Shown one piece after another: positions 3,207 through 52,534 of a stretch of 64,000 bases of DNA. The first letter of the stretch is position 1. The number at the start of each line of letters is the position of its first letter. Under the pieces are notes generated by a model, which was not told where the DNA came from, did no database searches, and was given only the letters and a program-made list of their open reading frames with translations. The translations under genes were made by a program, and so were the position numbers. The stretch spans positions 3,906,001-3,970,000 of the forward strand of contig NZ_CP089293.1 of NCBI RefSeq assembly GCF_021919345.1, in the 5' to 3' direction. The DNA comes from Paenarthrobacter nicotinovorans. Lineage in GTDB: Bacteria > Actinomycetota > Actinomycetes > Actinomycetales > Micrococcaceae.

Positions 3207-3976
3207 GCAAACCATTCGAAGGACTTACGGCCGCAGTCGTCGTCGAAGCCCGCAAGATGCGACTGTCCCGTACGGTCCTCGGGGCCGGATCCATCCTGAT
3301 CCTCGGTGTCAACGCACTTGCTTCCGGATTCGCACTGGCTGCGCGGTCCGGCAACCAGGCTGCACTCGCCAAGCTCGGACCGCTCGCCTCCCAGGGTGGC
3401 TGGACCGGGTACCTTGCCTCGGCACAGCAAATCACCGCCGCAGGCAGCGTACTGGCCTTCGGCATTGTCTTGGCCTGGATGTATGGTCGGGAATTCACCG
3501 ACGGTACGATCTCCGGCCTCTTTGCCTTGCCCGTGCGCCGACCTACGGTCGCACTAGCCAAGCTCATCGTCTTCGCTGGCTGGTCGTTCGCCGTCGCTGT
3601 CCTTCTGACCGCCACGTTAGTGGCACTTGGACTGATCCTGGGCTTCGGATGGCCCAACTCCACTGAACTAGCAGGGCTGGGTCGAATTCACCCTCTCATC
3701 GTCCTTTCCGCCTTGGTCGCTACGCCCGCAGCCTGGTCGGCGACTTTGGGACGTGGTGTGCTCAGCGGAATTGGCCTAACCGTGGGTGTCATGGCAGGCA
3801 CGCAGGTGGCGGTCCTCGTGGGCGCAGGCCCCTGGTTTCCTATCGCAGCCCCCGCACTCTGGGCGATAGCGCCCGATACCGTACCGCCGGCAGCCCTAGC
3901 TCTCACACTTGGGATACCGCTCACCTTCGGCGCGCTTACCCTCTGGGCTTGGTCGCGGCTTCAGCTGGACCGATGA
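3203..3976 (+). CDS. ABC-2 type exporter, membrane subunit
   Basis: This 257-residue protein has about six hydrophobic segments, as in ABC-2 permeases (for example around residues 22-45, 80-100, 115-145, 165-190, 195-225 and 230-250). Its ATG overlaps the ATPase stop codon (ATGA), showing translational coupling. With the ATPase it should form a 2+2 exporter in the cytoplasmic membrane. The gene ends about 50 bp before the rRNA terminator, so transcription converges with the complete rRNA operon. Confidence 0.88.
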   Translation: MSKPFEGLTAAVVVEARKMRLSRTVLGAGSILILGVNALASGFALAARSGNQAALAKLGPLASQGGWTGYLASAQQITAAGSVLAFGIVLAWMYGREFTDGTISGLFALPVRRPTVALAKLIVFAGWSFAVAVLLTATLVALGLILGFGWPNSTELAGLGRIHPLIVLSALVATPAAWSATLGRGVLSGIGLTVGVMAGTQVAVLVGAGPWFPIAAPALWAIAPDTVPPAALALTLGIPLTFGALTLWAWSRLQLDR

Positions 3977-4030
3977 ATCGTGCTGCCATAGAGCCGCGCG
4001 TTAGCGTTACGTGGCTGGCTTGCTTAAATG

Positions 4031-4060
4031 GAAGAGCCCCAACCGTGGTTGGGGCTCTTC
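4031..4060 (-). terminator. rRNA operon terminator (probably bidirectional)
   Basis: Two perfect 14-bp arms, GAAGAGCCCCAACC and its complement, are separated by 2 bp. The hairpin lies just beyond the 5S 3' end and also downstream of the converging permease gene at 3976, so it can stop transcription from both sides. On the minus strand it is followed by CATTTAAG rather than a strong U tract. Confidence 0.8.
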
Positions 4061-4066
4061 GTTAAT

Positions 4067-4189
4067 GGTTGTCCGGCGGTGTCCTACTCTCCCACACCCT
4101 CCCGGGTGCAGTACCATCGGCGCTGTGGGTCTTAGCTTCCGGGTTCGGAATGGGACCGGGCGTTTCCCCCACGCTATGACCGCCGTAAC
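4067..4189 (-). rRNA. 5S ribosomal RNA
   Basis: The minus strand reads GTTACGGCGGTCATAGCG, then conserved 5S core elements (CCCGGTCCCATTCCGAACC, GAAGCTAAGACCC), ending near GGACAACC. The terminal parts can pair, and the length of about 120 nt fits. It lies 150 bp downstream of the 23S gene and just before the terminator. Confidence 0.95.
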
Positions 4190-4310
4190 TCTGTTACCCG
4201 TCCCAACCCCGCGTTGGTGTGGGGGTGGGTGGGAAGCTTTGTGGTTACAACTGTGGTGTTATGTAGTTGTTGTTGTTGTTGGTTCCTGGAACGGTTGTTG
4301 TTCGGGAACC

Positions 4311-4324
4311 ACATAGTGGACGCG
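4311..4324 (-). repeat. 3' arm of pre-23S processing stem
   Basis: ACATAGTGGACGCG here is the exact complement of CGCGTCCACTATGT at 7601-7614 on the other side of the 23S gene. The pair would form a 14-bp helix closing the 23S precursor, the usual substrate of RNase III. Confidence 0.7.
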
Positions 4325-4339
4325 TGCAGTGTTTTGTGT

Positions 4340-9742
<5,403 letters not shown>

Positions 9743-9974
9743 ACAACCGGCACCACCCACACCCCACAGGGTCCAGGATCGCTCCGGAGCAACTTTCCAA
9801 AGTTACCCGAACCACCCGATCTTGGCAAATCAACGTTCCCGCGATTCTCCGATCAAGCATCCGGCCCCACCCACACAGCACGCTCAAAAGCGAACCATTT
9901 CTCAGGCTGTTATCAAGGGGGTCGGCCCCCGCAGTTCTCAGCTCCAGGCTGTCTCACTCGCGGCGACTCAGAAG

Positions 9975-10003
9975 ACATTACACGCCCACAAGCCCCCACA
10001 CAA
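9975..10003 (-). promoter_or_regulatory. Probable rRNA promoter, second operon
   Basis: On the minus strand TTGTGT (10003-9998), a 17-bp spacer and TAATGT (9980-9975) match the arrangement of the first operon, including the flanking CTGAGTCGCCG downstream. The predicted leader is about 420 nt, longer than in the first operon. A second weaker candidate, TTGCCA-17-TAACTT, lies nearer the gene at about 9830-9798. Confidence 0.5.
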
Positions 10004-10007
10004 ATCC

Positions 10008-10160
10008 ACCACCACACCACCCAAAAACCCCGCAAACACAACCCAAACAACCCCACCAACCCAACAAACCACCCCCAAACCCACCAAAACAACCACCGTG
10101 AACCCCATCACAACCACCCACACCCCCCCGACACCCACACACCCAACCCAACAACCGCCG
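10008..10160 (-). other. Extreme C/A-rich tract upstream of rRNA promoter
   Basis: For about 150 bp the plus strand consists almost only of C and A, with many CCC to CCCCC runs. The minus (rRNA sense) strand is G/T-only and could form quadruplexes with loops of 3-10 bases. Open frames here are proline/threonine-rich artefacts. The upstream region of the first operon (1640-1735) has the same bias. Confidence 0.6.
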
Positions 10161-10182
10161 TCGAACCCCATCCCAGCGGAAC

Positions 10183-10440
10183 GCGACCAAGCGACCGGCC
10201 CAAACCCTTGGGGAAGTGAGCAAGCGTCACAACCAAACCCGTGGAACGTGAGCAAGCGTCACAACCAAACCCCTGGAACGTGAGCGAGCGTCGGCCTGAA
10301 ACCCTAGGGATGTGAGCAAGCGTCACAACCAAACCCGTGGAACGTGAGCAAGCGTCACAACCAAACCCGTGGAACGTGAGCAAGCGTCCGATTCAAGCCC
10401 TAGGGATGTGAGCGAGCGTCGGAAAGAGGGGGCGGTTATC
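10183..10440. repeat. 32-bp tandem repeat array, locus 1
   Basis: The core GTGAGCAAGCGTC (or GTGAGCGAGCGTC) starts at 10216, 10248, 10280, 10312, 10344, 10376 and 10408, exactly 32 bp apart. A degenerate unit starts at 10183. The 19 bp between cores vary, mostly ACAACCAAACCCGTGGAAC. The array lies upstream of the rRNA promoter and downstream of rpsN. A closely related array is at 17824-17996. Confidence 0.9.
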
Positions 10441-10493
10441 CGGCAGCGCGCGTCCAAGGGAGGAACGACCGAGCGCGCAGAGGATGACCGCCC
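10421..10493. repeat. Conserved tail flanking the 32-bp array, locus 1
   Basis: After the last repeat comes a block with CCGGCAGCGCGCGTC and GAGGATGACCGCC. The same order of motifs, CCGGCAGCGTGCGTC and GAGGATGGCCGCC, follows the array at 18018-18076. Array plus tail therefore behave as one dispersed element. Confidence 0.65.
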
Positions 10494-10612
10494 CCTCCCC
10501 GCCGGCCACCCCTCCCCGACAGCCACCCTTCCGAGACCGCCGCCTCCCCGACAGCCGCCTCTCCGCGACAAGCCCACCGGCCTGAGAAACTGAACAACCC
10601 GCGCTTAAACAC

Positions 10613-10646
10613 AAAAAGGGCCGGCAACCATAACGGTCGCCGGCCC
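10613..10646 (-). terminator. Intrinsic terminator of rpmB-rpmG-rpsN
   Basis: On the minus strand GGGCCGGCGACC, a short loop and GGTTGCCGGCCC are followed by TTTTTGTG. It lies 17 bp after the rpsN stop codon and is the clearest rho-independent terminator in the window. Confidence 0.85.
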
Positions 10647-10662
10647 TTTCAGAGCTTCGTGA

Positions 10663-10968
10663 TTACCAGGAAGACTTGGTGATGCCCGGGAGCTCACCGC
10701 GGTGAGCCATGTCGCGGAAGCGAACACGGGAGATACCGAACTTCTGGAGCGTGCCGCGGGGACGGCCGTCGATCTGGTCGCGGTTACGCAGACGGATCGG
10801 GGAGGCGTTGCGGGGCAGCTTCTGCAGGCCGAGGCGTGCAGCTTCGCGTGCTTCGTCAGTCGCGTTGGGGTCAACCAGGGTCTTCTTCAGTTCGAGACGC
10901 TTGGCAGCGTAACGCTCAACAATGACCTTGCGCTGCTCGTTGCGAGCAATCTTGGACTTCTTTGCCAT
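10663..10968 (-). CDS. rpsN: 30S ribosomal protein S14, zinc-independent form
   Basis: The 101-residue protein begins [14 protein letters not shown] and ends LPGITKSSW, with the S14 signature region [13 protein letters not shown]. It is the longer form and has no cysteines, so it lacks the CxxC zinc knuckle of short S14. S14 binds 16S rRNA in the small-subunit head. It is last in rpmB-rpmG-rpsN and is followed by an intrinsic terminator. Confidence 0.97.
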
Positions 10969-10972
10969 GTGT

Positions 10973-11140
10973 TTAGCGCTCCTCTCGGAATTCGACGTGC
11001 TGGCGGATCTTGGGGTCGTACTTCTTCAGGACCAGGCGGTCCGGGTCGTTACGACGGTTCTTGCGGGTTACGTAGGTGTAACCGGTGCCCGCAGTGGACT
11101 TCAGCTTGATGATCGGACGTACGTCCTTGTCCTTTGCCAT
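10973..11140 (-). CDS. rpmG: 50S ribosomal protein L33, zinc-independent form
   Basis: The 55-residue translation begins [18 protein letters not shown], contains [20 protein letters not shown] and ends VEFREER, a typical L33. It has no cysteines, whereas zinc-binding L33 has two CxxC pairs. Its ATG overlaps the rpmB stop by one base (TAATG), and rpsN follows 4 bp after its stop. The gene is short but certain. Confidence 0.95.
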
Positions 11141-11376
11141 TAGAGCTTTACTCCTCGTGCCAGGATGTCGGCGACGACTGAGTCGATGCCGCGTACGTCG
11201 ATGGTCTTGATGCCACGGGCTGACAGGGTCAGCGTGACATTACGGCGCAGGGACGGAACCCAGTAGCGCTTCTTCTGAATGTTCGGGTCGAACCGTCGCT
11301 TGTTGCGACGGTGCGAGTGCGAAATGCTGTGTCCAAAGCCCGGCTCGGCTCCGGTCACTTGGCAGTGTGCTGCCAT
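11140..11376 (-). CDS. rpmB: 50S ribosomal protein L28
   Basis: The 78-residue protein [20 protein letters not shown]... with [17 protein letters not shown] is L28. It keeps one cysteine rather than the four of the zinc-binding form. The start at 11376 is preceded by GGAGGAG at good spacing; an in-frame ATG farther upstream gives no L28 sequence. Cysteine-free L28-L33-S14 clusters are repressed by Zur in several actinobacteria. No clear Zur palindrome was found upstream (11377-11590), so this set may instead be the constitutive one. Confidence 0.96.
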
Positions 11377-11759
11377 GACTCTCCTCCAAAGATTGAATGT
11401 AACGGCGTGCAGATGTTCCTGCGTTGCCGTGCGACAGGCAGTGTTCGCATCCGGGTCCACACCATTTCGGTAGTTTCCGCAGCAAGTGCGGCGAAGAAGG
11501 CTGGCCTCAGGACCGCAATGATTCAGGTCCTGGGATACCGGGCGAATACAGGAATGCACGCAACTTGAGCCCCTAACTACCGGCCAACGGGATGTCAGTC
11601 AGACTGACTTCACCACCAACCGGAGCAATTGCACACGATCCGCACTACCTAGCGCCTAACTATTCTACGGGCCAGGCCAAATTAAGACCAATCCGGCATC
11701 ATACGCCCTCAAAAGCTCTTTCACAGCAGAATGAAAGGAAGCCGGGCGAGTCTTGGGAT
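11377..11759. other. Intergenic region, rpmB to ferric reductase
   Basis: This 383-bp stretch separates divergent transcription units and must hold both promoters, but no strong -35/-10 pair stands out. An inverted repeat CAGGACC...GGTCCTG (11508-11532) is the only notable structure. An in-frame ATG at 11592 would lengthen the next protein by 56 low-complexity residues and is not favoured. Confidence 0.4.
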
Positions 11760-13220
11760 ATGACCTCGTTACTGGCCCCTGATTCTCCGGTGGACAACCC
11801 GTCGTCGCCCGGCCCGCGGACAGCACCTGCCGCCGTCGAGCGCTTCCGCCCGCAAGCACGACGGCGGCTGGCCCGGTCCGATGTCCTGGCTTTCGTCGGG
11901 TGGTTGTCGCCGGTTGCGGCGGTGACGCTGCGGCTTGCTGACGGCGGCGCCAACGGGTTCTCGTCGTTCGCGGCCACCATGACATCGCTGGGGATCGTAG
12001 CCGGCTTGATCGGCATGGACCTGGTGTTGTTGATGCTGTTGCTCGCGGCCAGGATCCCGTTCGTGGACAACACAATCGGCCATGACCGCGCCTTGGAGGT
12101 GCACAAGAAGCTGGGCAAACCGGCTCTTTACCTGCTGCTGGCGCATGGTCTCCTGCTCGCGATCGGCTACGGAGCGGCGGAGGGCCTGGATCCGGTCAGT
12201 GAGTCGGTCTCGCTCTGGGTCAACGTCCCGGACATGTGGCTCGCGTTCGTCTCCATGGCACTGTTCGTTGCCGTGGTGGTGACGTCGCTGGTGGCCGTCC
12301 GCCGGAAGTTCCCGTACGAATTCTGGTACGCGATCCACCTGCTGACCTATGTGGCCGTTGGCACCGCCATCCCGCACCAGTTCAGTGTGGGCGGGTTGTT
12401 CGCCGAAGGGACGTGGCAACGCTGGTACTGGCTGGCTATTTGCATTGCGACCGGCGCCGCACTTCTCCTCTACAGGGTGTACCTGCCGTTGGCAGCGACA
12501 TTCCGGCACCAGCTCACCGTCAGCCGCGTGGTCCGGGTCGCGCCGGACGTTTTCAGCATCGAAATGACGGGCCTTCAGCTGGAACGCCTGGCCGGCGCCG
12601 GGGGCCGTTTCTTCTTCTGGCGGTTCCTCGCTCCGGGACACTGGTGGCAGCCGCACCCGTTCAGCTTGTCGGCGGAACCCGTGTCCGGCGTCGGAAGCAA
12701 ACCAGGGAGCTTGCGCATCACAGTGCGAAACCTGGGTGAAGGCTCTGCCCGGCTTGCCCGGATCAAGCCCGGCACCAAGGTCGCCCTTGAGGGCCCCTAC
12801 GGCATGTTCAGCACGGCGGCACGCACCCGGAACAACGTGGTGATGATCGGCGCGGGGATCGGCATCACGCCGTTGCGGTCGCTCCTGGAATCCACCCCTT
12901 TCGAACCCGGACAGGCCACGGTCCTGCTGCGGGGACACGATGAGTCGGAGCTTTTCCTCGGCAAGGAAATCATGGCGTTGTGCCAGGCACGAGGCGCCAC
13001 CCTCTTCCACCTCACGGGGCCCCGCTCGGCCGGCGTCCGCTCCTGGCTCCCCGAATCCGCGACGACTGCCGGGTTCACCAGCGCCTCCTACGCACCCGGC
13101 ATCGCAGACGCCGACGTTTACGTTTGCGGCCCCACCCCCTGGGCCGCCTCCGTGATCAGGGAAGTCCGCGCAGCGGGTGTCCCCTCGGAACAAGTCCACT
13201 ACGAAAGGTTTGACTGGTGA
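11760..13220 (+). CDS. Ferric reductase-like membrane oxidoreductase (FRE/NOX family)
   Basis: The 486-residue protein has about six membrane helices in the first ~230 residues, with paired histidines typical of the haem-binding ferric-reductase domain (for example EVHKKLGK, LLAHGLLL, IHLLTYVAVGTAIPHQF). A cytosolic ferredoxin-NADP-reductase-like part follows: an FAD site HPFSLSAEP, a pyridine-nucleotide site GAGIGITPLRSLLE, VYVCGPTPWA and the terminal aromatic FDW. It should pass electrons from NAD(P)H through FAD and haem across the membrane. The stop overlaps the FMN-binding gene, and ApbE follows. The likely acceptor is the FMN protein rather than iron itself, an inference from context. 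The ATG at 11760 starts the recognisable protein; its RBS is weak. Confidence 0.9.
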   Translation: MTSLLAPDSPVDNPSSPGPRTAPAAVERFRPQARRRLARSDVLAFVGWLSPVAAVTLRLADGGANGFSSFAATMTSLGIVAGLIGMDLVLLMLLLAARIPFVDNTIGHDRALEVHKKLGKPALYLLLAHGLLLAIGYGAAEGLDPVSESVSLWVNVPDMWLAFVSMALFVAVVVTSLVAVRRKFPYEFWYAIHLLTYVAVGTAIPHQFSVGGLFAEGTWQRWYWLAICIATGAALLLYRVYLPLAATFRHQLTVSRVVRVAPDVFSIEMTGLQLERLAGAGGRFFFWRFLAPGHWWQPHPFSLSAEPVSGVGSKPGSLRITVRNLGEGSARLARIKPGTKVALEGPYGMFSTAARTRNNVVMIGAGIGITPLRSLLESTPFEPGQATVLLRGHDESELFLGKEIMALCQARGATLFHLTGPRSAGVRSWLPESATTAGFTSASYAPGIADADVYVCGPTPWAASVIREVRAAGVPSEQVHYERFDW

Positions 13221-13696
13221 GAATTCGAGCAGCCATGGCAACCGCGCTGGCGTCGGCGGGCATCCTGTTGGCGGGCTGGCAGTCGGGCGCGCACATCGCC
13301 GACACCGGCACGGCAACCACCACAAGCCTGGGCAGCAGCGCCAGTGCCGCCGGCGGCACCACCACGGGCACCAGCGGAAGCAGCAGCGCCACCAGCAGCG
13401 GAACCAAGACAACAACGACGGCGGCAACTTACGACGGCACGGCCGTCCAGACCCGCTTCGGTACAGTCCAGGTCCGGGTGACCATCCAGGGCGGCAAGAT
13501 CACCGAAGTCACGGCCCTCCAGCTCACTGACGCCGAACGCAAGTCGGCCCAGATAAGCAGCCGGGCAGCACCCGTGTTGCGGTCAGAAGTCCTCCAGGCG
13601 CAATCCGCGGACGTGCAAACCGTCGGCGGCGCAACGGTCACCAGCGACGCCTACCTCACCTCACTCCAGGCAGCCCTCGATGCCGCACACTTCTAG
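13217..13696 (+). CDS. Exported FMN-binding domain protein
   Basis: This 159-residue protein has an N-terminal hydrophobic segment (about residues 4-20) suggesting export or membrane anchoring, then a Thr/Ser/Gly-rich linker (about 30-68). An FMN-binding domain follows (about 70-159) with TRFGTVQVRVTIQGGKITEV and the C-terminal VGGATVTSDAY. The second threonine of GATVT fits the ApbE acceptor motif for covalent FMN. Its start overlaps the reductase stop and its 3' end overlaps apbE. It is probably the extracytoplasmic electron carrier served by the upstream reductase and flavinylated by ApbE. Confidence 0.85.
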   Translation: MRIRAAMATALASAGILLAGWQSGAHIADTGTATTTSLGSSASAAGGTTTGTSGSSSATSSGTKTTTTAATYDGTAVQTRFGTVQVRVTIQGGKITEVTALQLTDAERKSAQISSRAAPVLRSEVLQAQSADVQTVGGATVTSDAYLTSLQAALDAAHF

Positions 13697-14471
13697 CACC
13701 ACGCAGCTGCGGGCCCGGACATTCCGCACCATGGGCACCGTAGTGAGCCTGACGGTGGCGAGCGGACACTACGCCCAAACAGCCGTTGACGAGCTCGAGT
13801 CAGCAGCCGCCGTCGTCGAGGATAAATTCTCTGAACTGGACCTTAGCTTCAGCCTGTACCGGAACGGCTCCGAAGCGAGCAGGCTGGCCCGCGGTGAGCT
13901 GACCCTGGCCTACGCCTCCGAGTCCATGCAGGCCCTGTACGCAGAAGCGTCCGAATGGCGGTTGGCAACCGGCGGGGCTTTCACGGCTGAGCGGCCGGAT
14001 GGCACGTTGGATCTTTCCGGGATCGTGAAAGCACACGCGGTGCGTGAGGCGGCGTTGTCCCTCGAAGCCCTGGGTTTGCGGGACTGGTGCTTGAACGCCG
14101 GCGGCGATGTCCTGGTGAGCGGGTCCCCCGAACCGGGGACGGAGGAGCCGTGGCTCGCCGGCATCGTTGACCCGCAGGATCGGCAAGCCTTGCTGGGCGC
14201 GTATCCGATGTCGGCCCTGCGGGCACTCGCGACGTCGGGCACGGCTGAACGCGGCCAGCACATTTGGGCCATTGGAGGTGCGGCAACGGAGTTCGACCAG
14301 GTTTCCGTGGCCGCCGCCGACATCGTTACCGCCGACGTCCTTGCAACCGCCATCGTCGCCGGCGGGACAAGGACCCTCGATCAGGCTGTTGAAAAATGGA
14401 AGGTGGAAGTCCTCGCGGTACGTCGCGACGGGACGCTGCTGGCTACCCCCGGGTTCAGGAAACCGGCCTGA
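13680..14471 (+). CDS. apbE: FAD:protein FMN transferase (ApbE family)
   Basis: The 263-residue protein has ApbE motifs in order: MGTVVSLTV near residue 18, DLSFSLYRNGSEASRLARGE, LDLSGIVKAHAV, the NAGGDVLVSG loop and a C-terminal TADVLATAIVAGG where the catalytic Mg-binding aspartate is expected. It transfers FMN from FAD to a threonine of exported flavoproteins. The start overlaps the FMN-binding gene by 17 bp, strong evidence that this is its substrate. No signal peptide is evident, unlike Gram-negative ApbE lipoproteins. The stop lies in a TGATCA palindrome shared with the converging SGNH gene. Confidence 0.92.
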   Translation: MPHTSSTTQLRARTFRTMGTVVSLTVASGHYAQTAVDELESAAAVVEDKFSELDLSFSLYRNGSEASRLARGELTLAYASESMQALYAEASEWRLATGGAFTAERPDGTLDLSGIVKAHAVREAALSLEALGLRDWCLNAGGDVLVSGSPEPGTEEPWLAGIVDPQDRQALLGAYPMSALRALATSGTAERGQHIWAIGGAATEFDQVSVAAADIVTADVLATAIVAGGTRTLDQAVEKWKVEVLAVRRDGTLLATPGFRKPA

Positions 14472-41772: not shown

Positions 41773-42888
41773 ATGCGGAAGCTAATCATTGGAGCTACGG
41801 CAGCAGTCGCGATCGTGACTGGCTCCCTGGTAGCGGCGGCTGCCGCAAACGCCGACAGCGGGACCGTCGTCAGGGTGGTCGACGGCGACACGGTAGTTGT
41901 ATCCATCAACAACATCGATCAGACAGTTCGCCTGCTGAACATCAATACTCCGGAAACTAAGGATCCGAACAAGCCCACCGAATGCCTTGGGCCGGAGGCG
42001 ACAGATCATCTTGAGGGAGTACTGCCGGTGGGCAGCAAGGTCAGGTTGGAGTTCGACGTCGAACGCCATGACAAATACGGCAGAACCTTGGCGGGGGTCT
42101 TCAATGCCAGCAACCAGCTGGTCAACGCAGAGATCGCACGCCGGGGACTGGGGGTTCCAATGGTCGTCGGAGAAAACCGAAAGTTCCTGCCTCCTGTCGA
42201 AGCCGCCTTTGAGGAAGCGCGTACTGCCAAGTCCGGGCTCTTCGCAGAGGGCATCGAATGCACCCTCCCTGCGCAACTGGCAGCTGCCAACGAAGCACTG
42301 ACAGCGGCACAGAGTGCGGCGCCGGCAACGACGTCGGCCGGAGCGGGAGCATCGGCTACTGGGCTGGCGACAGCCATCGTTGCTGCCAAGGCAGCGAAAG
42401 ACCTCCTGTCCGCAGCGAGAGAAACAGAGAACTCCATCCTTTGGGCGGCATACTCTGCCAGCGAATCAACCGCCAAGTTGACCGCCCTGACCGCAGTAAT
42501 AACCCGGGCTGAGTCTGCACACAATCAGCTCAAGGAACAAGAGAAGACACTTGCCGCGGCCGAGAAGAAGGCAGAGGAAGAACGAGTAGCCGCTGTGGCG
42601 CGAGCGGAGGCAGAACGAAAGGCTGCTGCGGAAGCAGAGGCGGCAGCAAAGAAGGCTGCCGATGAGGCCGCCGCGGCAGAACAGGCTCGGGCAGCAGCAG
42701 CGGCTGCCGAGGCTGAACGGATACGCAACTTACCCGTACCAGCTCCCTATGTTCCGCCAGTCCAGCCGTATGTTCCGCCAGCTCAGAATTACGTACCGCC
42801 GGCGCCACCGGCCCAATCGAATCCCTACCCGGGGTACACGGGCCCCCGCTGTTACGCTCCCGGCGGCAAGTCCTGGCGTCCCTGCTGA
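41773..42888 (+). CDS. Secreted thermonuclease (SNase family) with coiled-coil tail
   Basis: The 371-residue protein has a signal peptide (1-27, ending AANA) and a staphylococcal-nuclease domain (about 30-160). The catalytic pattern is present: Asp38/Asp39 region VVDGDT, Arg53 in VRLLNINTPE, Glu61, and Arg104 in DKYGRTLAG. Residues ~190-320 form an alanine/glutamate-rich coiled coil, followed by YVPP repeats and a terminal GPRCYAPGGKSWRPC with two cysteines. It should be an extracellular Ca-dependent nuclease, perhaps wall-associated through the tail. A terminator follows at 42903. Confidence 0.9.
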   Translation: MRKLIIGATAAVAIVTGSLVAAAAANADSGTVVRVVDGDTVVVSINNIDQTVRLLNINTPETKDPNKPTECLGPEATDHLEGVLPVGSKVRLEFDVERHDKYGRTLAGVFNASNQLVNAEIARRGLGVPMVVGENRKFLPPVEAAFEEARTAKSGLFAEGIECTLPAQLAAANEALTAAQSAAPATTSAGAGASATGLATAIVAAKAAKDLLSAARETENSILWAAYSASESTAKLTALTAVITRAESAHNQLKEQEKTLAAAEKKAEEERVAAVARAEAERKAAAEAEAAAKKAADEAAAAEQARAAAAAAEAERIRNLPVPAPYVPPVQPYVPPAQNYVPPAPPAQSNPYPGYTGPRCYAPGGKSWRPC

Positions 42889-42983: not shown

Positions 42984-44480
42984 GTGATCACAGGTGAAAT
43001 CAAGTCCCAAGTAGACAAAGTCTGGAATACGTTCTGGAGCGGCGGTATCTCGAACCCGCTGGAAGTCATCGAGCAGATCACGTACCTTCTGTTCCTCAAG
43101 CGCCTGGACGAGAACCAGACTCGGGCGGAGAAGCAGGCCAACATCTTGGGCGAGCCGATCGAGAACGCGGTGTTTCCCGAGGGTGTTGACCCCCAGGGCC
43201 GCCCCTATTCGGACCTCCGCTGGTCGAACTTCAAGGACTTTGGTCAGATTGAGATGTTCACGGTCTTCCAGCAGAACATCTTCCCGTTCCTCCGAACTGA
43301 GCTGACCAAGCAGTCCAACGGCGAAGACTCCACTTATAGCCACCACATGAAGGATGCGCAGTTCAAGATCCCGAACGCGGGTGTCTTGAAGCAGGTGGTG
43401 GATGTCATCGACTCCATCAACATGGAGGGCCGCGACACCAAGGGCGATCTCTACGAGTACATGTTGTCGAAGCTGGCATCGGCGGGTACCAACGGACAGT
43501 TCCGAACCCCACGGCACATCATCGACCTCATGGTCGCGATGACAGCACCCCAGCCACTCGAAGCCATCTGTGATCCGGCCGCTGGCACCTGCGGCTTCCT
43601 GGTTCAGGCCGGCGAATACCTCCGTAAGAACAACAGCAATCTCCTCACCAATGACGAGACCAGTAAGTTCTTCCATCACGAGCAGTTCCATGGCTTCGAC
43701 TTCGACTCCACCATGCTCCGCATCGGTTCAATGAACATGCTGCTCCACGGGGTCGAGAACCCGGATGTTTCCTACCGCGATTCACTTGCCGACCTGCACT
43801 CCGTCGAGGAAGAGAAGTACAACGTCATCCTCGCCAACCCGCCGTTCGCTGGCAGCTTGGACTACGAGAATGTGTCGAAAGAGTTGCTGAACGTCGTCAA
43901 GACGAAGAAGACCGAACTCCTCTTCCTGGCACTTTTCATCAAGCTGCTTAAGCCAGGCGGACGCGCTGCGGTTATCGTTCCCGACGGCGTCCTCTTCGGC
44001 TCCACCGGCGCACACAAGTCCCTCCGCAAGACACTGGTCGAAGGCCACAAGCTCGACGCCGTCGTAAAACTCCCGTCCGGCGTCTTCAAGCCCTACGCCG
44101 GTGTCTCCACCGCCATCCTCTTCTTCACGAAAACCAACTCCGGCGGCACGGATAACGTCTGGTTCTACGACGTAAAGTCGGACGGGTTCAGCCTCGACGA
44201 CAAGCGCACGCCGCTTGCCTCTTCCGACCTTGAGGACGTCCTCTCACGTTGGAATCAGCGCACGACGGCGGAACTTGAGCGGGCGCGCACGGAACAGTCC
44301 TTCTGTGTTCCGCTTTCAGAGATCGTGGCGAACGACTACGACCTGTCGCTGAACCGGTACAAGGAGATCGAGTACGAAGAAGTCGAGCATGCTGCCCCTG
44401 AGGAAATCCTGGCTGCACTGGATCAGCTCGAGACTGAAATCACCGAGGGCATGAACGAGCTGCGGGAGCTGCTGAAGTGA
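42984..44480 (+). CDS. hsdM: Type I restriction-modification DNA methyltransferase subunit
   Basis: The 498-residue protein has an HsdM N-terminal helical domain (about 5-140: KVWNTFWSGGISNPLEVIEQITYLLFLKRLDE), motif I DPAAGTCGF (198-206) for S-adenosylmethionine and catalytic motif IV NPPF (285-288), marking an adenine-N6 methyltransferase. A GTG at 42984 is the only sensible start. The stop overlaps the hsdS ATG (ATGA). With HsdS it protects host DNA, and with HsdR (48258) it forms the restriction complex. Confidence 0.96.
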   Translation: MITGEIKSQVDKVWNTFWSGGISNPLEVIEQITYLLFLKRLDENQTRAEKQANILGEPIENAVFPEGVDPQGRPYSDLRWSNFKDFGQIEMFTVFQQNIFPFLRTELTKQSNGEDSTYSHHMKDAQFKIPNAGVLKQVVDVIDSINMEGRDTKGDLYEYMLSKLASAGTNGQFRTPRHIIDLMVAMTAPQPLEAICDPAAGTCGFLVQAGEYLRKNNSNLLTNDETSKFFHHEQFHGFDFDSTMLRIGSMNMLLHGVENPDVSYRDSLADLHSVEEEKYNVILANPPFAGSLDYENVSKELLNVVKTKKTELLFLALFIKLLKPGGRAAVIVPDGVLFGSTGAHKSLRKTLVEGHKLDAVVKLPSGVFKPYAGVSTAILFFTKTNSGGTDNVWFYDVKSDGFSLDDKRTPLASSDLEDVLSRWNQRTTAELERARTEQSFCVPLSEIVANDYDLSLNRYKEIEYEEVEHAAPEEILAALDQLETEITEGMNELRELLK

Positions 44481-45643
44481 AGCTTGTGCCACTCGTCAAG
44501 GTCGCTCGTGTCGTCTCTGGCGGGACGCCCAAGACTGCCGTCGCAGAGTACTGGGACGGGGACATTCCATGGGCAACACCCAAGGACCTAAGCAGCCTCA
44601 GGGCTGTAGAAATCCACTCAACTCCCCGGGGACTGACCCCGGCGGGTTTGAATGCTAGCAGCGCCGAGGTTCTACCCGCTAATTCGGTTTTGTTCAGTTC
44701 CCGTGCGCCAATCGGTCTGTTGGCCATCAACAGCGTTCCCATGGCAACAAACCAAGGGTTCAAAAGCTTTGTTCCCGACCCTACCCAGCTTGAGGCCCGG
44801 TATCTCTACCGCTGGCTCGAATTCAACCGGAAATGGCTACAAAGTCTTGGTGTTGGTGCGACTTTCAAGGAGGTTTCAAAAGCCACTGTTTCGCGGATTG
44901 AACTTCCTCTGCCATCCTTAGCGGAGCAGCGGCGGATTGCGGCGATTTTGGACAAGGCCGATGAGCTCCGCGGCAAGCGCCGCCAAGCAATCGCCCACCT
45001 GAACACCCTCACCCAGTCGATTTTCCACTCCATGTTCGGCGATACGGTCTCTAATAGCCTCAACTGGCCAGTCAAAGCCTTCGGCCGGGTCACTACGAGC
45101 CGCCTGGGCAAGATGCTGGACAAGAAGGCCCAGACTGGAAAGCATGGCTTTAAGTATCTGCGCAATGCCAACGTGCAATGGTTTCAGATCAATACGGATG
45201 ATCTGCTCGAGATGGACTTTAGCCCCTCAGACCAAATCGAGTTCGCACTTCGCAGAGGAGACATCCTGGTGTGTGAAGGTGGGGAACCGGGCCGAGCAGC
45301 CATTTGGAAAGACCAGGCAATCGACTGTTACTTCCAGAAAGCACTTCACCGTGTGCGACCGAATCCTGATGATTTAGATCCTCAATACATAGTTCACCTG
45401 CTCTGGGCTCTGGCTCATGGCGGCGGCCTCAAAGACCATGTGACGGTTGCTACGATCGCACACCTAACCGGTGAGAAGCTCAAGCGAATGCACATTCCAG
45501 TTCCCCCGCTCGAACTGCAGCAGACCTTCGCAAACCGAATTGCCGCCGTCGAGCGTTTGAAGGAAACTTACCGCAAGCACTTGGCGGAACTGGACGCGCT
45601 CTTCGCGTCTCTCCAAAACCGCGCGTTCAAAGGAGAACTCTAG
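44477..45643 (+). CDS. hsdS: Type I restriction-modification specificity subunit
   Basis: The 388-residue protein has two target-recognition domains (about 1-150 and 195-350), each followed by a conserved helix: LPLPSLAEQRRIAAILDKADELRGKRRQAIAHLNTL and IPVPPLELQQTFANRIAAVERLKETYRKHLAELDALF. Two domains predict an asymmetric bipartite recognition site. It is translationally coupled to hsdM and overlaps the downstream mrr gene by one base. The second domain is intact, with no inverted repeats suggesting phase variation. Confidence 0.95.
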   Translation: MKLVPLVKVARVVSGGTPKTAVAEYWDGDIPWATPKDLSSLRAVEIHSTPRGLTPAGLNASSAEVLPANSVLFSSRAPIGLLAINSVPMATNQGFKSFVPDPTQLEARYLYRWLEFNRKWLQSLGVGATFKEVSKATVSRIELPLPSLAEQRRIAAILDKADELRGKRRQAIAHLNTLTQSIFHSMFGDTVSNSLNWPVKAFGRVTTSRLGKMLDKKAQTGKHGFKYLRNANVQWFQINTDDLLEMDFSPSDQIEFALRRGDILVCEGGEPGRAAIWKDQAIDCYFQKALHRVRPNPDDLDPQYIVHLLWALAHGGGLKDHVTVATIAHLTGEKLKRMHIPVPPLELQQTFANRIAAVERLKETYRKHLAELDALFASLQNRAFKGEL

Positions 45644-46584
45644 TGACCGAATCAGCGGCTCAGGCACCTTCGACCGAGGTACCGATTTGGCCAGCGCTCA
45701 TCGTGCCGGTTCTCCAAGCTCTGTCTGATGGACAGACGCTCCACCGGAAGGAGCTCTTCCATCAAGCGGCGGATCAAGCCGGACTGTCGGCGGGCGCTCG
45801 CGAGGAGACCCTGAACTCGGGCGGACTGCGTTACGAGCAGCGCATGGGCTGGGTCCTAAGCCACCTGACACGGGCGGGCTGGATCGACCGTCCCGTAAAG
45901 GGGTACTACTGCATCACCGATACCGGCAGGCAGTGGCTTCTGGACAATCCTCAGGGGATCAACTACAGCCAGGCACACACAATCTTTGCGCAGTACTGGC
46001 CGAAAGCCGACGGTCAAGCCGCACCCACTCAGGCTGCGCGAGAGACCGGCCTCTCAGCTACGGAAGAACTGGAGCCAGTGGAGCAGATCGAGGACGCGAT
46101 AAACCGCATCCAAGGCGAAGTAGGAGCATCGCTCCTTAAACGGCTTCACGAAGGACATCCGGACTTTTTCGAAGACGCTGTGGTGAAGCTGCTGCTGAAG
46201 ATGGGCTACGGAGGTGCTGAGCAACGGGGGCGACGTATCGGTGGCACCGGTGACGGTGGCGTTGACGGGGTTATAGACCAAGACGCGCTTGGGTTGGATC
46301 GGGTCTACATCCAGGCAAAACGTTACAGCCCGGACAACGCCGTTGGCCGCGAAGCCATCCAAGCATTCGTAGGAGCGCTGCATGGCTTCTCTGCCTCCAA
46401 GGGCGTTTTCATCACCACCAGTAGGTTTTCACAAGGTGCGAGAGATTATGCAGGCAGTGTCGGCACCCGCACAATCCTGATTGACGGCGCTCGTCTAGTG
46501 AGCCTCATGATTAAATACCGGGTCGGAGTGCAGGTGAAGCAGAGCTACGACGTCGTAGAACTGGACGAGGACTTCTTCGAATAA
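45643..46584 (+). CDS. Mrr-family restriction endonuclease
   Basis: The 313-residue protein has an Mrr N-terminal winged-helix domain (about 15-105) and a C-terminal Mrr catalytic domain (about 170-300). FFEDAVVKLLLKMGYGG, GTGDGGVDGVI (Asp208) and VYIQAKRY (Gln224-Ala-Lys226) together form the PD-(D/E)xK-like site with a Q in place of the second acid, as common in Mrr. Mrr enzymes cut DNA with foreign methylation. GTG at 45643 overlaps the hsdS stop by one base, so it belongs to the hsdMS operon. Confidence 0.92.
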   Translation: MTESAAQAPSTEVPIWPALIVPVLQALSDGQTLHRKELFHQAADQAGLSAGAREETLNSGGLRYEQRMGWVLSHLTRAGWIDRPVKGYYCITDTGRQWLLDNPQGINYSQAHTIFAQYWPKADGQAAPTQAARETGLSATEELEPVEQIEDAINRIQGEVGASLLKRLHEGHPDFFEDAVVKLLLKMGYGGAEQRGRRIGGTGDGGVDGVIDQDALGLDRVYIQAKRYSPDNAVGREAIQAFVGALHGFSASKGVFITTSRFSQGARDYAGSVGTRTILIDGARLVSLMIKYRVGVQVKQSYDVVELDEDFFE

Positions 46585-46594
46585 CTCGACCACT

Positions 46595-46662
46595 GTCGCC
46601 GTACGGCAACAAATGCTAAAGTCGGCGTACGGCGACATTCATCAAAGTTGCCGTACGGCGAC
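46595..46662 (+). promoter_or_regulatory. Three phased palindromic operators and promoter of hipBA
   Basis: Three near-identical 16-bp palindromes lie at 46595-46610 (GTCGCCGTACGGCAAC), 46621-46636 (GTCGGCGTACGGCGAC) and 46647-46662 (GTTGCCGTACGGCGAC). Their centres are exactly 26 bp apart. An extended -10-like TGCTAAAGT (46614-46622) touches the middle operator, and the hipB RBS AGGAG touches the third. This is the expected layout for cooperative autorepression by a HipB-type antitoxin. Confidence 0.8.
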
Positions 46663-46673
46663 AGGAGCAGCTA

Positions 46674-46898
46674 TTGCGTACGGTCCGAGAGGCAGGGCCC
46701 TTGGTCCGGGAACTCAGGGAAGAGCGAGCCTGGTCACAGGCAGAGTTGGCCCGGCGCGCCAGCGTCTCACGCACCTTTGTCATCGATCTTGAATCCGGTA
46801 AAGCATCGGTGGAAACGTCCAAGTTCATGGATGTCTTTCAAGCCCTTGGTTTCGAGATCGCCATACGCGACAGCGAGACGGGCGCAGTTCGGTGGTGA
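46674..46898 (+). CDS. hipB: HipB-like antitoxin (Xre-type HTH)
   Basis: The 74-residue protein starts with TTG at 46674 after AGGAG. It has an HTH_3/Xre fold: LVRELREERAWSQAELARRASVSRTFVIDLESGKASVETSKFMDVFQALGFEI. It should bind the three upstream palindromes and neutralise HipA. Its stop codon overlaps the hipA GTG (GTGA). The antitoxin is shorter than E. coli HipB (88 residues) but complete. Confidence 0.9.
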   Translation: MRTVREAGPLVRELREERAWSQAELARRASVSRTFVIDLESGKASVETSKFMDVFQALGFEIAIRDSETGAVRW

Positions 46899-48187
46899 GT
46901 GCGCGCGCTCTTGAAGTGTTCATGGACGGGACACTTTGCGGCCGGGTTGAACAGTCGTCGTCGGGGAATCTGACGTTCCGCTATTACCCCGAATACCAGG
47001 CAGCCCCCAACGCGACCCCGCTGTCACTGTCCATGCCCTTGGCCGCCACCCTCCACAAGAAGCGCAACGTCCTGCCCTTTCTCCAGGGCCTCTTGCCCGA
47101 CAGTGAAGGGGCCCTCCAGACGATTGCCCGACGGTTCCGGGTGTCCCCGTCCAACCCCTTCGCCATCCTTGAACATATCGGTGCCGATGTCGCGGGTGCG
47201 CTCCAGTTCATGCGGCCGGGCACCGGATCTTCGGATGGCACCCTCGCAAGAACGGCGGTGAAGCCAGTTTCGGACAGGGATGTGGCCGAGATGCTGGACC
47301 ACGTCGTGACTGAGTACAAAGACGGCACGCCCTACGACGACTCCGCAGGACGCTTCAGCCTCGCCGGGGCTCAGCCAAAGATCGCCCTGCACCAACTTCC
47401 CAACGGCGACTGGGCGGTACCGGAAGACGCTACCCCCACGACGCACATCCTCAAACCGGCAGCCGGCACATTCAGTCGCTTGGATATTGTGGAACAGCTG
47501 ACCATGAGGGCAGCATCTTTTCTGGGGCTCGAGGTGGCCAAGTCCGAACTCCGCCGCATCGGCAACTGGGACGTCTTTGTGACACGTCGCTATGACCGCC
47601 AGGAAGTGGGTGGAACCTGGCGCCGCATCCATCAAGAAGACTTTTGCCAGGCATTGAGCGTTTCTCCAGCCAAGAAATACCAGCACCGTGACGGAGGGCC
47701 GGGCGCGAGCGATATGGCCGCCCTTATCCGATCGCTTCCTTTTGAAGCGGACCGCCGGGCGGCAGGAGCAGGGCTGTACCGGGCCCTTGTTTTCAACACC
47801 GTGGCCGGTTGCACCGACGCGCACGCCAAAAACTACTCCCTCCTCCTCCATGGCAGTAGAGCGCAGCTATCGCCCCTCTACGACCTCGCCACCTATGCCC
47901 CGTATTGGGACGCGGACTCAGGTATCGACTTGGCCATGAGTGTGAAAGCCGAATACAGGCTTCAGAAGATCAGCAAGCAGATGCTGGTCTCGACAAGCAC
48001 TCAGTTTGGCGTTGATGCTGAAGCAGCCCGGGAAATGGTCGAACACTATTCTCGCGGCATAGTGGAAGCATTCGAAGCTGCCAGGGAAGAGCTGAAATCC
48101 CAGCTGGGATCCCTGCCGAAAATCACCGATGACACTATTGCGAAGGTACGACTGCTGCCACTCGTCGAGGCCACGGATCTGAAATAA
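46895..48187 (+). CDS. hipA: HipA-family serine/threonine kinase toxin
   Basis: The ~430-residue protein has the HipA N-terminal region (LEVFMDGTLCGRVEQSSSGNLTFRYYPEY) and kinase motifs. The phosphate-binding SLAGAQPKIAL (about 156-166) includes a serine equivalent to the autophosphorylation site, CTDAHAKNYSL has catalytic Asp309 and Asn314, and PLYDLATY has metal-binding Asp331, so it should be active. E. coli HipA phosphorylates glutamyl-tRNA synthetase and causes dormancy; the target here is unknown. GTG at 46895 gives a GTGA overlap with hipB. It sits between mrr and hsdR in the same direction. Confidence 0.93.
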   Translation: MSARALEVFMDGTLCGRVEQSSSGNLTFRYYPEYQAAPNATPLSLSMPLAATLHKKRNVLPFLQGLLPDSEGALQTIARRFRVSPSNPFAILEHIGADVAGALQFMRPGTGSSDGTLARTAVKPVSDRDVAEMLDHVVTEYKDGTPYDDSAGRFSLAGAQPKIALHQLPNGDWAVPEDATPTTHILKPAAGTFSRLDIVEQLTMRAASFLGLEVAKSELRRIGNWDVFVTRRYDRQEVGGTWRRIHQEDFCQALSVSPAKKYQHRDGGPGASDMAALIRSLPFEADRRAAGAGLYRALVFNTVAGCTDAHAKNYSLLLHGSRAQLSPLYDLATYAPYWDADSGIDLAMSVKAEYRLQKISKQMLVSTSTQFGVDAEAAREMVEHYSRGIVEAFEAAREELKSQLGSLPKITDDTIAKVRLLPLVEATDLK

Positions 48188-48257
48188 GGCATAAACGGTC
48201 GCAGTCCCGTGATTGACTACCTTCAGGACATCGGAGCAACGGATCGGAGACGGCTGC

Positions 48258-51200
48258 ATGGGGGCAGTTACCAGCAACTTTGGGTTCATGCTGGGCGAGT
48301 GGCCCGAGTTGGCCCAGCAAGCACGCCGGGCCGAACAATTCGCCCGGGTCGATCCACGCGCTTCCGTGTTCTACGCCCGTTACACCATCGAACGCATTGT
48401 TGAGTGGCTTTATCAAGTGGAGCCAGGGTTGGTGACCCCCTACAAAGATGACCTCAACGCGTTACTGAACGAGCCCACCTTTAAGAATCTTGTGGGCGGT
48501 CCTATTGCCAACAAGCTCACGATCATTCGCAAAGCCGGTAACAATGCGGTCCACAATTCCGTTGGCCCCACCATCCAGGGCGCTGAACTCGTGCTCCGCG
48601 AACTGCACCACGTTTGCTATTGGCTCGCGAGGAACTACGCCAAAACCGGTAGCCAGCTGCCGCCGTCGTTGGTCTTCGACGCCAGTATCCTGGCCCCAAA
48701 GCCGAAGACGCCGGCACAGCAGCAGTCGCCCGAAGAACTCCAGGCACTCGAGAGCCAACTCAAAGCCCAAAACGAGGCCCTTGCACAAGCAGCAGCGGAT
48801 TCGGCAGACCTTAAGGCCCAGCTGGAGATTCTGCAGGCTGAAGTCGCGGAGGCCAAAAAACAGAACCAGACCGTCCCTGACCACCACGACTATGACGAAG
48901 CCCTGACCCGCAGGCACCTCATCGATCTTGAGCTGAACGAGGCAGGCTGGCCGCTCACCAATACAGAAGACCGCGAGTTCAAGGTAGACACCATGCCCAC
49001 GGCGAGCGGCACGCTCAGCGGAGTGGGCTACGTGGATTACGTGCTGTGGGGCGCTGACGGGCTGCCCCTCGCAGTGGTCGAGGCGAAAAGGACAACCAAG
49101 GATCCCCATGTAGGGAAGCAACAAGCCAAGCTGTACGCCGACTGCCTGGAACGTCGCTATGGTCGACGACCGATCATCTACTACAGCTCCGGTTACGAGA
49201 CATGGATCTGGGACGACACCATGTACCCGGAGCGCTCGTTGCAGGGCTTCCACACAAGGGATCAACTTCAACTGCTGATCAACCGCCGTCAGAGCCGAAA
49301 GCCTCTGGCTGAACAGGCAATCGACAACTCCATCGTCGAACGCCCCTACCAGCACAACGCCATCCGGGCCGTCACTGAAGCCTACGAAAAGGACTTCGAG
49401 CGCAAGGCGCTTGTAGTCATGGCGACAGGCACGGGCAAGACGCGCACCGTCGTCGCACTCGCCAAGCTCCTGCAGGAAGCCAACTGGGCCAAACGCGTTC
49501 TGTTCCTCGCGGATCGGGTTGCGTTGGTCAAGCAAGCGGCCAACGCCTTCAAGGCCCACCTTCCCGGTTCCAGCCCTGTCATTCTGGGCTCGGACGATGA
49601 AGCAGACAGCCGCATCCATGTGGCTACATATCCGACGATGATGAACCTCATCAACCGGACCGAGGGAAAGCTTGGCCAGCGGACCTTTGGCATTGGCCAC
49701 TATGACCTCATCATCGTTGATGAAGCCCACAGGTCGGTCTACCAAAAATACAGGGCCATCTTCCAGTACTTCGATTCACTCCTCATCGGGCTGACAGCCA
49801 CGCCACAGTCAGAGGTGGACCGCAACACCTACAGCCTTTTCGGCATCGAGGACAACGTTCCAACGTTTGCCTATGAGCTCAGCGAGGCCATCGAGGCCGG
49901 ATATCTTGTGCCACCGCGGGTCGTTCCGGTTCCGCTGAAGTTTCCTGACCAAGGCATCTCGTACGAGGACCTCCCAGAGGCTGAAAAAGAGCAGTGGGAC
50001 GAGCTCGAATGGGACGAAGACGGCGAGATCCCGGACTCGGTCGATTCAAGCGTTATCAATACCTGGCTGTTTAACGCCGACACAGTGGATAAGGCACTGG
50101 AAGTCCTTATGACCCGCGGCCACAAAGTCGCCGGCGGGGATCGCCTGGGCAAGACCATCATCTTCGCGAAGAACAACAGACACGCGGAGTACATTGCTGA
50201 ACGCTTTGACAAGAACTACCCGGCTTACAAGGGTCAGTTTGCTCGCGTCATCACCTATCAGGTGAACTACGCCCAGATTCTCATCGACCAATTCTCGACC
50301 ACCGAGAGTGATCCCCACATCGCTATTTCGGTAGACATGCTGGACACCGGCGTTGACGTGCCGGACGTCGTCAACCTCGTCTTTTTCAAGATGGTCAGGT
50401 CCAAGACCAAATTCTGGCAGATGGTGGGCCGCGGAACGCGACTCCGGCCGGAACTGTATGGGCCGGGCGAGGACAAGAAGGACTTCTTTATCTTCGACCT
50501 CTGCCGCAACGCCGAGTTCTTCAATGCGGGAATGCCCAGCAATGAAGGCTCTGTGGGTAAGTCACTCGCGGAGACTACGTTCGCTGCGCGCGTCCAGCTC
50601 CTGCAAACTTTCACTGACCTTCAATGGGACCCCCAAGCGCCCGTTGTTGCCGACCTCCGGCAAACCCTGAAACACGCAGTTGACCGGCTTCCGCTGGACA
50701 ACTTCCTCGTTAAACCGGCACGCAAATGGGTGGACAGGTTCGCCGAAGAAGCAGCCTGGAAATCGTTGGCAGCCGAGGACTTCCAGGCTTTGCAAACCCA
50801 GATCGCCAGGCTCGCTACCATCGGCGCGCCTGCGGATACGGAAGAGGCCAGGCGGTTCGACTACCTGATGCTTCAGGCAGAGTTGGCGTCGCTGCAGGGA
50901 TCGGCGGTTGGGCCGTTCCGGACAAAGATCCAAGCCATCGCCTCGGCCTTGCAGGACCAGCAGAGCATCCCGGCCATCGCTGCTCAGTTGCCCCTGCTGG
51001 AAACCATTCTCCACGACGACGAATGGGAATCCGTTTCGTTGGAATGGCTTGAGGACATCCGCAAGCGGCTCCGCGGATTGGTCCATCTGATCGAGAAGCG
51101 GAAGCGCAAAGTGGTCTACACAAACTTCCAGGACGAGCTCGGCGTGCTTGAGGAAGTCGAACTGGTGGGGACAACCAATGGCTTCGTCGACCTCCCTCGG

Positions 51201-51656
51201 TACAAAGAAAAAATGCGTTCGTACCTGGCGCAATACGAGGAGCATGCAACCATTCAACGGCTCCGGCGTAACAAGCAACTGACGGCGTTGGACCTTGCCG
51301 AGCTTGAACGCATTCTTCTTGAAAGCGGTTTGGGTTCGCTTGAAGACTTGAATCGTGCCGCCAACGATGGCCTCGGCCTCTTTGTCCGTTCCCTGGTTGG
51401 TTTGGACCGCGAGGCCGTCGAGGAAGCGTTGTCAGAGTTTGTAGCTGGTACTACGCTCACAGCCCAGCAGCTCAACTTCCTCAACGTTCTGACCAATCAC
51501 CTGATGGAAAACGGAAAGGTCAGCCCGAAGGCGTTGTTCAATTCCCCGTACAACGAGCTGGCCCCGTCCGGGCCGGATGTGCTGTTCGGCGATGAAAAAA
51601 TCGGGCAGCTGATCAGCATCCTCCGCTCCATTGAGAACCACGCGAAGGTTGGCTGA
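48258..51656 (+). CDS. hsdR: Type I restriction enzyme R subunit, EcoEI-like, with DUF4145 N terminus
   Basis: The 1132-residue protein has a DUF4145-like domain (about 1-130), a coiled coil (about 160-205), a PD-(D/E)xK nuclease domain ([21 protein letters not shown], Asp260 and Glu275-x-Lys277), and helicase motifs (ATGTGKT 389-395, DEAH 488-491, and [12 protein letters not shown]). An EcoEI-type C-terminal domain binds the methyltransferase. ATG at 48258 is preferred to a TTG at 48213 because of the GGAG before it. Only 70 bp separate it from hipA. The next gene overlaps its stop. Confidence 0.95.
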   Translation: [1132 protein letters not shown]

Positions 51657-52534
51657 TGTCCCTCACCCTCGCCCATGTCCTGGCCGGCGTGGGGGCTGAG
51701 CAGGTCCCGCCGGTTTCCTTGGACGATATCCACGTAATACGCCACTCATTCAGGCCGAATGACGTTGCCGCGCTCCGTGGACCTGAAGACCTGACCGAGG
51801 AACGAGTCTTGGCGTACACCCGGGAGCAGGACATTTCGCCTCGTCGTTTCCCGGCAGCCCCTCCTCGCTTTTGGGTGATACTCATAGCCGATGGCAAGAA
51901 CCGCTCTCGCCTCTGGGGAACCTTCGAAAATCGTGGAGAATTGGCGACCGAACGTACTGGATCGTGCCGGTATTACGACCTCCATTCAACGGATTTCCTT
52001 GCACCCCTCAAGGATCGGCTCGTAATTGACTGGGACAATCCCCGCAGCTGGCACCGTGGCGCCAGCTCCGCCAGCGCAGCGCGGATGCAGGTAGTCGAGA
52101 TCGCTGACCGGGACAAGGTTCCTTTTCCAGGCTTCGACGGTGTGCTGCTTAGCTACCCCCAACTGCAGGACCTGGTGGATGACCCACGCTACGGGGACTG
52201 GCGCGCAGCACTTTCCGAGGTCCAGGGGATTTACCTGATTACTGACTCCAGCAACGGGAAGCAATATGTCGGCAAAGCCGACGGCTCCGAGCGGATCCTA
52301 GGCCGATGGACGAGCTACGCCCGCGACGGACATGGCGGTAACGTGGCGCTCCGTGAGCTGGCGTATGACAGTGTGGGCGAAACAACGAGCATCAAAACAG
52401 ACCACGCGCGGCACTTCGTTTTCAGCCTCCTCCGCGTGTTCGGCCCCAGCACGCCCTCGTCCGAAGTGAACACAGCCGAGTCCCACTACAAGGCGGCGCT
52501 CATGACCCGAAAATTCGGCCTGAACAGAAATTAA
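51656..52534 (+). CDS. GIY-YIG nuclease domain protein with N-terminal unknown domain
   Basis: The 292-residue protein has an unrecognised N-terminal domain (about 1-180, including PPRFWVILIADGKNRSRLWGTFENRGE) and a GIY-YIG domain (191-285: GIYLITDSSNGKQYVGKA, Arg217 in RILGRWTSYA, Asn229, a later glutamate in VNTAESHYKAALM). All core residues look present. It starts in the hsdR stop codon (TGATG), so it is cotranslated with the restriction subunit and ends the island. It may be an accessory restriction nuclease; a direct function is not established. Confidence 0.82.
   Translation: MSLTLAHVLAGVGAEQVPPVSLDDIHVIRHSFRPNDVAALRGPEDLTEERVLAYTREQDISPRRFPAAPPRFWVILIADGKNRSRLWGTFENRGELATERTGSCRYYDLHSTDFLAPLKDRLVIDWDNPRSWHRGASSASAARMQVVEIADRDKVPFPGFDGVLLSYPQLQDLVDDPRYGDWRAALSEVQGIYLITDSSNGKQYVGKADGSERILGRWTSYARDGHGGNVALRELAYDSVGETTSIKTDHARHFVFSLLRVFGPSTPSSEVNTAESHYKAALMTRKFGLNRN

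Follow-up and report, generated by a model that had tools for sequence, protein, structure and literature searches.

The window, a 64,000-nt stretch of Paenarthrobacter nicotinovorans DNA (positions 3906001-3970000 of a 4.48 Mb genome; all coordinates below are window-based), carries a type I restriction-modification locus in which the toxin-antitoxin genes hipB and hipA lie between hsdS and hsdR, on the same strand as both. HsdM, HsdS and HsdR are all present with type I restriction-modification domains in Pfam and PADLOC, and a function in restriction and methylation is predicted. The closest HsdR among the named genomes was that of Paenarthrobacter nitroguajacolicus (99% identity). The role of chromosomal hipBA modules is still debated. 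An initial annotation had read the gene order as hsdM-hsdS-mrr-hipB-hipA-hsdR-GIY-YIG, all on the plus strand, which agrees with the coordinates and profile matches (L numbers denote loci in other genomes; HTH, helix-turn-helix):

42984..44480, plus strand: hsdM, type I DNA methyltransferase, 498 amino acids (PF02384, 5.5e-67; PF12161; PADLOC MTase_I, 3.8e-199)
44477..45643, plus strand: hsdS, specificity subunit, 388 amino acids (PF01420 in two stretches; PADLOC Specificity_I)
45643..46584, plus strand: mrr, Mrr-type nuclease, 313 amino acids (PF04471, 8e-34; PF14338; PADLOC mREase_IV)
46595..46662, no strand: three 16-bp dyads, putative HipB operators (kept in L004, L005, L009 and L029)
46674..46898, plus strand: hipB, HTH antitoxin, 74 amino acids, TTG start (PF13560, PF01381; HipB(Lp), 2.9e-06)
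46892..48187, plus strand: hipA, HipA-family Ser/Thr kinase toxin, 431 amino acids (PF07804, 3.5e-50; PF13657, 7.7e-25; E. coli HipA, 4.7e-39)
48193..48257, plus strand: hsdR leader with a conserved element (alignment of 17 loci and motif scan)
48258..51656, reading frame open from TTG 48213, plus strand: hsdR, restriction subunit (PF04851, PF08463, PF04313, PF13643; PADLOC REase_I, 5.6e-176)
51656..52534, plus strand: GIY-YIG-type protein, PADLOC UzuA, 292 amino acids (PADLOC, 5.3e-146; no Pfam match)

The proposed coupling of genes by overlaps was confirmed for hsdM-hsdS-mrr (4 nt between hsdM and hsdS, 1 nt between hsdS and mrr), for hipB-hipA (7 nt, or 4 nt with hipA from the next GTG) and for hsdR and the GIY-YIG gene (1 nt). 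The hipBA pair overlaps neither of its flanks, with gaps of 89 bp between mrr and hipB and of ~70 bp between hipA and the hsdR ATG. The start of hsdR is more likely ATG 48258 than TTG 48213, since its relatives begin at an SNFxF motif. The exact seven-gene order was rejected as a unit: among the annotated loci it was seen in the window alone, and the relatives vary in mrr and in the last gene. The mrr gene is indeed part of the arrangement, but is not special to it, as it follows hsdS in 17 of the 28 loci of the window's family that hold hsdS and hsdR in cis.

The hipBA cassette

The open reading frame 46648-46914 was rejected as hipB, being in the wrong frame and without a profile match. The gene was re-framed to 46674-46898 with a TTG start, where HTH profiles match and the closest solved structure, by sequence, is HipB(Lp). 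This antitoxin gene lies upstream of hipA and overlaps it, as in hipBA type II toxin-antitoxin modules. HipA carries the Couple_hipA (PF13657) and HipA_C (PF07804) domains, and the catalytic residues named in the initial annotation (Asp309, Asn314 and Asp331) were upheld by alignment with E. coli HipA and by the motif. A plasmid search with HipA returned 1646 records, every one below 60% identity.

Three near-perfect dyads of 16 bp start at 46595, 46621 and 46647, that is, 79, 53 and 27 bp before hipB and with a spacing of 26 bp. The dyad block is conserved in L004, L005, L009 (where hipA shifts frame near its end) and L029. As the dyads are kept even in L029, where HipA is 62% identical, while the DNA further upstream is unrelated, hipBA forms a distinct cassette, with the dyads as putative HipB operators. 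HipA is under purifying selection: the ratio of nonsynonymous to synonymous substitution rates (dN/dS), in which synonymous sites are saturated for distant pairs, was 0.07-0.12 for the window against L004, L005 and L029, and 0.07-0.15 for L023 against L014, L123, L124 and L130.

Recurrence and turnover between hsdS and hsdR

A scan of the named genomes with HsdR gave 23 loci, and hipBA was found directly before hsdR in L004, L005, L009, L014 and L023. The 295 genomes of the window's family included 46 with an HsdR match and 101 with a HipA match. HsdR places were fetched in 39 cases, and hipBA occupied the slot between hsdS and hsdR in two of the 28 with both genes in cis, namely L029 and L043 (the window not counted). 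The L029 HipA was the closest to that of the window in the family search; its hipBA lies on the strand of hsdR and before it, after GmrSD-like, HigBA and FitA/VapC-like genes. The L029 slot (484-6422) thus contains a stack of three toxin-antitoxin-like pairs (HigBA, FitA/VapC-like and HipBA) along with a GmrSD-like gene. As a control, the 20 next-ranked HipA loci (that of L043 apart) were all without hsdM, hsdS or a full hsdR match, with L066, L070 and L083 cut by contig ends and other type I families escaping these queries; L081 and L084 showed a 25-26% match to the helicase part of HsdR, 7-8 kb off.

The HsdR search of 349 Burkholderiales genomes gave a match in 22, and 20 regions were fetched. 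Seven of these (L086-L092) had the order hsdM-hsdS-hsdR and hipBA in none; the other 13 (L093-L105) had no hsdM or hsdS before hsdR. When the L023 HipA, which like the other Burkholderiales copies belongs to another subfamily than that of the window, was searched in the 399 genomes of the family of genome G312, 12 genomes matched at E<=1e-60, or 13 with L014. The pair hipB-hipA lay directly before hsdR in six of the 13 (L014, L023, L123, L124, L126 and L130; four of 11 once L014 and L023, found through HsdR, are removed) and elsewhere in seven (L125, L127, L128, L129, L131, L132 and L133, where L129 is a 3.6 kb contig with a HipA identical to that of L128). The hsdM and hsdS genes are upstream in L023, L123 and L130, and hsdM is on another contig in L014 and L126; the hsdR of L126 is in pieces. 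L124 (genome G1295, 9024-14121) holds hipB-hipA-hsdR with an open hsdR, although that genome yielded no hsdM of this family.

In the HsdR tree (79 rows, built by a quick method), all five intact Burkholderiales rows with hipBA fell into one starred clade. The hipBA label (10 rows) needs three changes on this tree, or five with L043 and the L006 remnant described below counted. In the HipA tree (40 rows), one starred clade united the five slot copies from Micrococcaceae (window, L004, L005, L009 and L029). The L043 and Burkholderiales copies fell elsewhere; those from Burkholderiales were interspersed with stand-alone copies, on branches that are partly weak. The slot label needs five changes on this tree, at least four of them forced. 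The two trees suggest several gains or losses as well as long co-inheritance. The initial annotation had asked whether hipBA merely lies at random positions. Most HipA genes do lie outside hsdS-hsdR slots, but hipBA recurs at the slot in separate lineages, which a single chance insertion does not sufficiently explain.

Losses were also seen. L006 (HsdR 81% identical) retains a 52 bp remnant of the dyad block at 83% identity and a 99 bp remnant of the hipB end at 76%. In L008 (HsdR 75%), the dyad block survives over 54 bp at 91%, and a piece resembling the hipA end was seen in the alignment, without a tblastn match. As these scars sit just before the leader of an open hsdR, hipBA was once present in both loci and was then lost. 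A HigBA-like pair now stands upstream of the scar in L006, and L008 now has a hipIN-like pair as well as a PIN gene in reverse orientation.

These losses bear on addiction, an explanation that we consider unlikely, in which hipBA keeps the restriction locus (or a former mobile island) in place because cells that shed the locus or island are arrested. The initial annotation had suggested that hipBA may guard the locus against loss; it may do so, but it is not indispensable, because the two sister loci lost it and kept their restriction genes, with hsdR open. No integrase or attachment site turned up around the locus, although no search was aimed at either. What speaks for addiction is the persistence of hipBA-hsdR in G1295 without a detected hsdM of this family, and the GC content of ~58-60% at the locus, below most of the right half of the window (61-67% over most other DNA right of 12 kb). 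An analogy may also be drawn with Shewanella putrefaciens CN-32, where HipAB on the island GI21/CGI48, which carries a type I system, was shown to maintain that island, and where HipB and HipAB repress their own operon (PMC8978831). There, unlike here, hipAB follows hsdR at a distance of two genes and on the other strand, and the hsdS-hsdR gap is filled by an AAA_5 gene and a hypothetical gene.

The slot was surveyed in 66 loci that hold both hsdS and hsdR in cis. This set leans towards the window's kin and excludes the window itself, the duplicates L027, L028, L031 and L086, L014 (no hsdS on its contig), L022 (hsdR cut short) and those loci to which HipA had led; slot classes were assigned by visual inspection of open reading frame lists, with Pfam and PADLOC applied to representatives only. 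There was no room for a gene in 12 slots, mrr alone in eight, and ~0.5 kb or more of further, partly unrecognised DNA in 46. Toxin-type cargo was present in 20 of the 66. The slots held hipBA (L004, L005, L009, L023, L029 and L043), hipIN-like pairs (L008, L011 and L047), HigBA (L006, L029 and L059), PIN genes (L007, L008, L018, L025, L029 and L038), Fic genes (L039, L091, L109 and L113) and HepT-MntA (L089). Of these, HigB (L006 and L029) and PIN_10 (L018) fall short of the Pfam cut-off. Further cargo included GmrSD-like genes and the PADLOC candidates PDC-S11 and HEC-09. A gene of ~360 amino acids occupies the slot of L044, L112, L114, L115, L117 and L118, five of which look alike by eye only; that of L044 is PDC-S11, with a weak NucS_C match.

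Placement over whole genomes was compared for HipA_C and Fic only, in 44 HsdR-bearing genomes besides that of the window, with hand-entered slot lengths and rounded genome sizes. Five of 45 HipA_C places (four loci, two hipIN-like) fell in slots against 0.0175 expected under even placement, and three of 84 Fic places against 0.033. As defence genes cluster, this excess shows linkage, not function. As the hipBA modules and toxins at the hsdS-hsdR junction differ between bacteria, with toxins and nucleases making up most of the interchangeable cargo, this site appears to be a slot for back-up modules that can be exchanged. A quite unlikely alternative is that the junction simply tolerates insertions and that hipBA has no tie to restriction. 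The cargo is indeed very varied, some of it without a recognised domain, and the authors of PMC12255303 call the hsdS-hsdR site in their system a potential recombination hotspot. Against this, hipBA lies directly before hsdR and on the same strand in two HipA lineages, and the single clade of the five intact Burkholderiales HsdRs with hipBA suggests long co-inheritance.

Possible roles of hipBA before hsdR

The reading that we prefer, and to which we give an about even chance, is that hipBA is a self-contained cassette in a recurrent slot, serving as an exchangeable second-line module held by HipB, with a transcript that possibly continues into hsdR. This cargo slot lies between hsdS, or hsdS-mrr, and hsdR in one type I restriction family. 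HipB, alone or with HipA, would bind the three dyads and keep expression of the cassette low, and HipB would hold HipA inactive. Infection or damage might lower HipB, upon which HipA would arrest growth as a second line behind restriction, possibly with an anti-phage effect. Growth arrest upon failing restriction, as the initial annotation had proposed, is likewise an inference. As hipA ends ~70 bp before hsdR, the latter may be expressed from the same transcript; no plus-strand terminator-like site was detected between the two genes in a consensus scan, which would permit read-through.

Several observations weigh against this reading. A consensus scan showed no sigma-70-like promoter at the dyads, and the region was no richer in such sites than shuffled sequences, so that a hipBA promoter is presumed rather than seen. 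The hsdR leader element is retained with or without hipBA, and hsdR may therefore have its own promoter. Stand-alone HipA copies of the Burkholderiales type gave dN/dS values of 0.08-0.13, within the same range as above, and the constraint on HipA is thus not specific to the slot. In L043, the slot holds two hipA copies on the strand opposite to hsdR, and hipBA is a minority cargo overall.

The leader element itself (48193-48230) was found in the window and in nine relatives with and without hipBA, which belong to the clade of the window's HsdR and have HsdRs above ~60% identity. In looser motif scans of 34 relatives, it occurred only before hsdR in nine loci, and in the window with one mismatch. 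It was rejected as a genome-wide operator: the strict pattern gave one place elsewhere, with two mismatches, and missed the leader itself. A related reading, which we regard as unlikely, makes HipB the controller of restriction, with a dyad-repressed hipBA promoter driving hsdR and a loss of HipB raising HsdR and HipA together. If this were true, the slot would be a general site where toxin-antitoxin repressors take over hsdR, coupling the first and second lines of defence.

A toxin-antitoxin pair between hsdS and hsdR is already known. The RRDM island (RptR-RMS-DarTG2-M48) of enteropathogenic E. coli protects against phage and carries DarTG2 at this site (PMC12255303). It resembles the present locus in having the pair inside a type I system, but the toxin there is that of DarTG2 and not HipBA. 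The RptR repressor before hsdM controls the island promoter, whereas here the dyads lie before hipB (no search for RptR was made). The Hip-family kinases in the slots of L008, L011 and L047 resemble hipIN, a described family of a HipI kinase and a HipN protein with a HIRAN domain (PMC8262856), and PADLOC PDC-M03; they differ from hipBA in the short kinase and the HIRAN partner downstream. The PDC-M03 assignment rests on L008, and the hipIN name on PMC8262856 and our own reading. Protection against phage is described for another kinase of the HipA family, DS-6/HipAD (PMC13092281). Searches of an open-access library gave no text that places hipBA between these two genes, hsdS and hsdR. Such loci may already be listed in a preprint, cited by PMC12255303, that deals with systems nested inside immune systems; the PADLOC candidate names in the slot point likewise. 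The hipBA version, with its natural losses, is thus a useful new variant of a known arrangement.

A further known case is prrC, which lies within the EcoprrI type IC operon; inhibition of the restriction enzyme activates it (PMC3874165, PMC12707154). By analogy with this latent growth-stopping toxin gene inside a type I operon, the restriction complex might hold HipA and release it when a phage protein inhibits the complex, which we consider very unlikely. Whereas the restriction complex holds PrrC, an anticodon nuclease, HipA is a kinase that comes with an HTH antitoxin and dyads of its own, and unrelated toxins fill the slot in relatives; the antitoxin and dyads, like these toxins, argue against one specific contact between HipA and the restriction complex. 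No match to the PrrC anticodon nuclease family was found in Pfam among the seven proteins as first called, and HipA matches HipA profiles.

Because hipBA stands before hsdR in two lineages that are far apart, and natural losses, scars and different toxins occur at the same site, such loci would make two ideas directly testable: that HipA is a reserve defence linked to restriction, and that the level of a restriction subunit is set by the repressor of a toxin-antitoxin pair.

Membership of the last gene in the unit is doubtful. It is adjacent to hsdR and overlaps it, as the initial annotation had it, but it is not a constant partner, with a relative only in L005 among the annotated loci beyond the window. 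The protein matches the PADLOC models for UzuA of the Uzume system (5.3e-146 and 1.8e-81) and has 2314 homologues at E<=0.001, many of the named ones labelled GIY-YIG nuclease family protein.

On the other side of the locus, an SNase-domain gene (41773-42888) is the next open reading frame upstream, its end 95 bp away from hsdM. GC content is also lower, mostly 55-60%, in a second stretch at positions 1-11000 of the window.

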